Part shown: piece after piece, positions 32,550 through 32,999 of the stretch
Position numbering within the stretch: the stretch's first letter is position 1
Layout of the letters: every line of letters starts with the position of its first letter
From: an uncultured Nitrospiraceae bacterium
GTDB taxonomy: Bacteria > Nitrospirota > Thermodesulfovibrionia > Thermodesulfovibrionales > Dissulfurispiraceae
DNA: 64,000 bases
Direction of reading: 5' to 3'
Assembly (NCBI GenBank): GCA_903822005.1
Contig: CAIJNL010000018.1
Location: 1-64,000 of the forward strand
The notes under the pieces: generated by a model
The model's database searches: none
What the model saw: only the letters and a program-made list of their open reading frames with translations
What the model was told of the DNA's origin: nothing
Position numbers and translations under genes: made by a program

Positions 32550-32999
32550 TTAACGCATCACTTCCGCTTTTAATGTAAGGGTCAATTTGGGTCTTTTAGG
32601 GTCATTGCTGAAGACCCATATTTCCTTGACTACACGCCCTTTATAATCCCTTGCATCAAGCGTCGCGACTATCCTGCCTGCCTCTCCCGGTTTGATATGG
32701 CTCGAACTAGCCATTGCCGCGGTGCAGCCTCAGGGGGGGCTCACCTTGATGATTTCAAGTTCTTCCGTGCCGTCATTCCTGAACTCGAAGGTATATTCGA
32801 GCGGTCCGTTGCCGCTTACTACTCCGAAATCATACATCTCTTCGCGGAACGCGATAATCGGGTAAGGGGGAACGACCGGCGGAAGACTGCTGTCGCTTAT
32901 TGTCCCTAAATTATGCGTCTCTTCGCTGGCCGTGGCCGGCTGTTGCGCAAAGGCGATTAAAGGCAAAAGTAAAAAGAATATAAATAGTGCTTTTTTCAT
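32550..32999 (-). CDS. DUF1573 protein with in-frame UGA, candidate selenoprotein
   Basis: Read from ATG 32999 the frame has a signal peptide (ending IAFA), then the DUF1573 marks MYDFGVVSG and FEFRNDGTEELEI, and meets TGA at 32730-32732 (codon 90). Past the TGA the same frame continues for 59 codons to TAA at 32550: GCTAAM, then GEAGRIVATLD, RVVKEIWVFSND and PKRPKLTLTL, the conserved second half of the domain. In the family the position of the UGA is the first Cys of the Cys-Gly-Cys-Thr motif, so the product would read Sec-Gly-Cys-Thr. A SECIS-like hairpin follows (separate entry). A frameshift is excluded since both halves are in one frame; a Cys-to-stop mutation is the alternative. Periplasmic, function unknown; a redox role is inferred. 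Confidence 0.75.
32697..32714 (-). promoter_or_regulatory. SECIS-like hairpin after the in-frame UGA
   Basis: On the minus strand ATGGCT and AGCCAT form a perfect 6-base stem around the loop AGTTCG. The stem begins 15 bases and the apical loop 21 bases after the UGA at 32730-32732. Bacterial SECIS elements lie inside the coding region just after the UGA, with a small apical loop having a G within its first two bases, about 16-37 bases downstream. This hairpin meets these published pattern rules as I know them. Confidence 0.6.

Follow-up and report, generated by a model that had tools for sequence, protein, structure and literature searches.

Does a UGA codon inside a DUF1573 gene of an uncultured Nitrospiraceae bacterium encode selenocysteine (Sec), and if so, does the protein represent a new selenoprotein family? 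The gene lies on the minus strand of a 64,000-nucleotide stretch of DNA, the whole of which is called the window here, and the only in-frame TGA is codon 90 of a frame whose readthrough product has 149 residues (Table 1). When the frame was re-read, its coordinates, the 149 codons, the TGA and the terminal TAA agreed exactly with the first-pass annotation, and an ordinary gene call under the standard code ended at 89 residues, the truncation which that annotation had foreseen. As had also been claimed, the UGA replaces the first Cys of a CGCT motif, giving Sec-Gly-Cys-Thr, and the domain continues on both sides of it, with a Pfam match to PF07610 (DUF1573) that spans the codon (E 5.6e-23, 81.2 bits against a gathering cut-off of 26.1). 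By inspection the N-terminus resembles a signal peptide, which supports the earlier proposal of a secreted protein. The predicted structure (mean pLDDT 87.9) is Ig-like with a PapD/ASH-like fold, and its best match among solved structures is 2qsv of Porphyromonas gingivalis, whose function is unknown.

Table 1. Positions of the predicted selenoprotein gene and its parts in the window
Feature	Position	Strand	Basis
Predicted DUF1573 (OS_HP2-type) selenoprotein gene, ATG 32999 to TAA 32550, 149 aa plus TAA	32550..32999	-	Frame, Pfam, NCBIfam
In-frame UGA, predicted selenocysteine, residue 90	32730..32732	-	Homologues have TGA at this column; Cys relatives have TGC/TGT
Cys92 of Sec-Gly-Cys-Thr, possible partner thiol; missing from some Sec forms	32724..32726	-	
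Predicted SECIS hairpin AUGGCU-AGUUCG-AGCCAU, stem from 15 nt past the UGA; second loop position G	32697..32714	-	
DUF1573 Ig-like (PapD/ASH-like) domain, residues 49-147	32559..32855	-	Pfam; pLDDT about 95 there; 2qsv
Putative signal peptide, residues 1 to about 18 (MKKALFIFFLLLPLIAFA)	32946..32999	-	By inspection

Among 73 other TGA candidates listed mechanically in the window, twelve of the longer ones were inspected; they looked like antisense or out-of-frame stretches or ordinary gene ends, and two that were compared with Pfam gave no match.

Conservation of the UGA codon and a hairpin downstream

DUF1573 matches were found in 24 of 60 related genomes, and TGA was kept at the UGA column in nearly all of the matching genes. 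A scan of a genome collection with a DNA pattern, consisting of the TGA and the conserved bases after it, yielded 51 further UGA-DUF1573 loci; on translation every one proved to be a DUF1573 protein whose frame is open before and after the TGA. Nearly all are from Nitrospirota; their records are labelled with the phylum or its classes, apart from a few labelled just as bacteria and one as Acidobacteria. In viral contigs the combined TGA and SECIS pattern was not found, and plasmids held only distant DUF1573 relatives of the Bacteroidota type. Across the phylum, 113 of 296 genomes had DUF1573 matches, and a hand count of the strong matches listed gave about 70 in which the matched stretch includes a TGA and about 30 in which it has no stop, although a few short proteins may have been counted in the first group for their terminal TGA. 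Pairs of Sec and Cys forms at the column, which the first-pass annotation had proposed to look for, are present: phylum relatives carry the Cys codon TGC or TGT there (L132-L137), and two more loci are Cys homologues (L023 and L027). Over the 45 codons past the hairpin described below, pN was smaller than pS in 45 of 46 pairs of related sequences whose nucleotide identity exceeded 68%. Because the same column is TGA across the order and the phylum and the sequence downstream evolves as protein, the UGA at this codon is not a matter of chance.

In RNA, the hairpin listed in Table 1 can form, its stem beginning 15 nt past the UGA, and both its distance from the UGA and the G in its loop fit the bacterial SECIS consensus. 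Among 43 distinct sequences, 94% of the cells of the seven-pair helix were paired, compared with at most 45% for slid versions of the helix. Cells with double changes numbered 52 versus 19.4 in shuffles, four of the pairs showing such changes, and the covariation value of 0.478 versus 0.242 for shuffled data was reached by no shuffle. The stems of homologues vary widely in both arms (GTGGTC/GACCAC, CTGGCT/AGCCAG, CTTGCC/GGCAAG, CTGGTT/AACCAG), and their loops are AGTTC or GGGTCC, with G at position one or two. The pattern behind the 51 loci fixed the AGTTC loop and a single T in the 5' arm, so that loop conservation among them is partly by construction, whereas the 3' arm was unselected beyond one purine. 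Conservation of the amino acid sequence could explain part of the hairpin conservation, but not the paired changes in both arms. Given its composition, the window sequence does not form an exceptionally stable local fold (z -0.33); the case for a SECIS rests on covariation. An Rfam scan gave no SECIS model at threshold, a tRNA-Met gene being the only match. In six relatives from the phylum that have a Cys codon, just 3-4 of the seven stem pairs are kept, compared with 5-7 in the Sec forms. From these sequence comparisons, the hairpin is a predicted bacterial SECIS that is specific to the UGA forms. A variant loop, AGTTT(G) in place of AGTTC, was seen in four UGA-DUF1573 genes (L127, L131, L139 and L140).

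Decoding machinery and two halves of a tRNA-Sec gene

The first-pass annotation had pointed to the Sec machinery as a check, which was answered in part: selA, selB and selD were found in this genome, whereas selC appeared only as two halves and in no intact copy. The selB gene lies about 3.2 kb beyond the end of the window (C18:67202-69064), selA is on the same contig (C18:300571), and selD carries an in-frame TGA of its own. SelB scored above cut-off in every relative whose DUF1573 match shows the UGA, but this co-occurrence is weak support because 56 of the 60 genomes have SelB anyway. The genome also holds a second UGA-DUF1573 gene, which has a double domain, the motif Sec-Ala-Cys-Thr and the hairpin GTGTGCTT-GGA-AAGCACAC. 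It belongs to an operon-like run (L145:2017-5461, corresponding to G000:C18:264517-267961) together with a rhodanese gene, a cytochrome c554-type gene and an adjoining gene of the UGSC family, which has a UGA at its UGSC motif. The UGSC family selenoprotein (NF041046) shares with the DUF1573 genes a UGA at the Sec position, but its domain is unrelated. Two predicted selenoproteins stand side by side in this run.

No intact tRNA-Sec was found in the assembly, either with an RNA model or in a DNA search with the tRNA-Sec of a genus-mate (G001), in which, as in most relatives, the gene is intact. Instead, a 41-nt 5' part (G000:C26:105361-105401, L054) and a 68-nt 3' part (G000:C48:32503-32570, L053) share CTTCAAAT at the anticodon loop, where apparent mobile-element ends adjoin. 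Both halves are contig-internal, ARAGORN called a tRNA-SeC only when they were joined, and downstream of the 3' half on C48 the flank shows synteny with the locus of the intact G001 gene. These features would fit a selenoprotein by descent whose Sec decoding was lost when a mobile element split selC at the anticodon loop, so that only the truncated product is made. We consider such a loss unlikely, although it deserves some weight. A relative, G017, has both junction types, namely a 5' part and, apart from it, a 3' part flanked by similar sequence, and yet retains an intact selC 2.3 kb downstream of the 5' part; contig C26 continues for 1.7 kb past the 5' half and then ends, so that an intact copy may sit in the gap; and the UGA is kept with no visible decay in selD, the second DUF1573 gene and the UGSC-family gene. 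Because G017 combines the same junction types with an intact copy, an intact selC of this genome probably lies in the assembly gap after C26. Parts with the 5' end of selC also occur in G038 and G016; we read the halves as the probable result of repeated site-specific integration at the anticodon loop, and in this order selC appears to be a hot spot for integration. No integrase was identified.

Among relatives, partial selC copies ending at the anticodon loop were observed in L177 (930-969 and 3282-3379), L178 (3823-3888), L179 (4020-4060) and L181 (556-590), with inverted-repeat-like flanks (TTTTTGTA / TACAAAAA). A high-scoring match to the tRNA-Sec model RF01852 in G038:C2 (L180:2095-2189, 66.7 bits) was rejected as a tRNA-Sec, since ARAGORN assigned it to tRNA-Cys(GCA); it is a tRNA-Sec-like tRNA-Cys with the anticodon GCA.

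An alternative is that an ordinary DUF1573 gene of the Cys type has suffered a nonsense mutation or a sequencing error and that its downstream half is decaying; a single change of TGC or TGT to TGA at the read level would be enough for such an error. Nevertheless, more than 50 independent genomes share this TGA with its hairpin, purifying selection acts on the 3' part in relatives, and the hairpin is missing from the Cys relatives; the conserved TGA and the covarying hairpin refute this explanation, to which we assign almost no probability. Just as negligible is a genome-wide reassignment of UGA or generic readthrough with no SECIS-directed Sec, for although a lone in-frame UGA does not tell the residue inserted, long frames of the window end in TGA normally, the selA/selB/selD set is complete and the hairpin is confined to UGA forms. 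The earlier proposal of Sec at this UGA is supported by the conserved TGA, the hairpin covariation and the presence of selA, selB and selD, and the product of the window gene is very probably a secreted selenoprotein with a single DUF1573 domain, of the OS_HP2 type already known.

Family membership and a possible function

The OS_HP2/DUF1573 family was reportedly first found by Zhang and Gladyshev in 2007, in a deltaproteobacterial symbiont of Olavius algarvensis. The first-pass annotation had regarded the protein as a candidate new selenoprotein and was not aware of DUF1573 in lists of selenoprotein families; the claim of a new family is not supported, as DUF1573 has been in such lists since 2007-2008. 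OS_HP2 was given as pfam07610 with the motif UxC, represented by two Sec sequences alongside 354 homologues with Cys (PMC2398784, 2008), and DUF1573 is listed with the motif UGC in two reviews, both of which cite the 2007 paper on the Olavius symbiont (PMC9312934, 2022; PMC13188914, 2026). The window protein combines PF07610 with Sec-Gly-Cys, as in the definition of the reviews, and its best and only NCBIfam match is the OS_HP2 family (seleno)protein model NF041425. It is a new member of this known family, with which it shares the Pfam domain, the UGC motif and the existence of Sec/Cys pairs. It differs in its Nitrospirota lineage and in a score below the model's cut-off (70.6 versus 100 bits), for which reason genes of this type are probably truncated in annotation. 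Compared with Cys-type DUF1573, choice-of-anchor D and HYDIN-like Ig domains such as 2qsv, the fold is shared, as is the CGC position in phylum relatives, but the Cys-type genes have a Cys codon and, in the six phylum relatives tested, no SECIS hairpin. The covariation confirms a selenoprotein family for which reviews give a single motif and name no function, and DUF1573 selenoproteins are common in one phylum where the NCBIfam cut-off would miss them.

The relatives of the window protein also extend the family in architecture and motif. DUF1573 is fused to SCO1/SenC in L018 and to a cytochrome c in proteins of the L013 type, and it also stands behind a CarboxypepD_reg-like domain; the motifs include UGA, UGS, UxxCT and U with no Cys. 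The second Cys is missing in the UGAD and UGSR forms and displaced in UxxCT forms while Sec stays, so that Sec is the functional constant of the motif. In the open-licence literature we found no description of a Nitrospirota-wide spread of DUF1573, of the cytochrome c or SCO1/SenC fusions, or of forms with Sec as the sole invariant residue of the motif. The fusions and the loss of the second Cys are hints to function and offer a direct route to testing the role of Sec.

The window gene itself is solitary in its genome, with no redox gene adjoining, and the neighbourhood of the short form showed only lineage synteny (divergent uvrA-like and ApbE-like genes and one UbiA-like gene, all named by eye) and nothing that fixes a function. 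As functional hints, the cytochrome c and SCO1/SenC fusions and the run with rhodanese and cytochrome c554 suggest a redox link. The insertion of Sec in this organism, the export of the protein and its chemistry are what we infer. SelB would bind the hairpin just past the UGA and deliver Sec-tRNA-Sec, so that selenocysteine would be placed at residue 90 and the Ig-like domain completed, whereas if selenium or tRNA-Sec were absent, translation would stop at residue 89. The selenol, located at a strand end in the position of the CGC motif, would be the reactive group of a thiol/selenol module that may serve the c-type cytochromes of respiration and possibly also copper sites where SCO1 is fused. 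That the protein works beside respiratory cytochromes in the periplasm, as a selenol module for redox reactions or metal handling, seems plausible, with the balance about even. More doubtful is a wider proposal, that DUF1573 selenoproteins have spread in Nitrospirota and serve respiration in the periplasm in several forms (stand-alone, fused to cytochrome c, fused to SCO1 and double-Sec), in which a lone Sec on an Ig-like fold, needing no partner thiol, acts in electron transfer or copper handling. If true, this would be a kind of Sec site found neither on the thioredoxin fold nor in the classical Sec enzymes.

In one relative, G058 (L028:727-1989 with L026), a single frame contains two DUF1573 domains, both of which have a UGA and a hairpin-like sequence of their own, and the second domain, reading U-K-R-A-T, has no Cys after the Sec.
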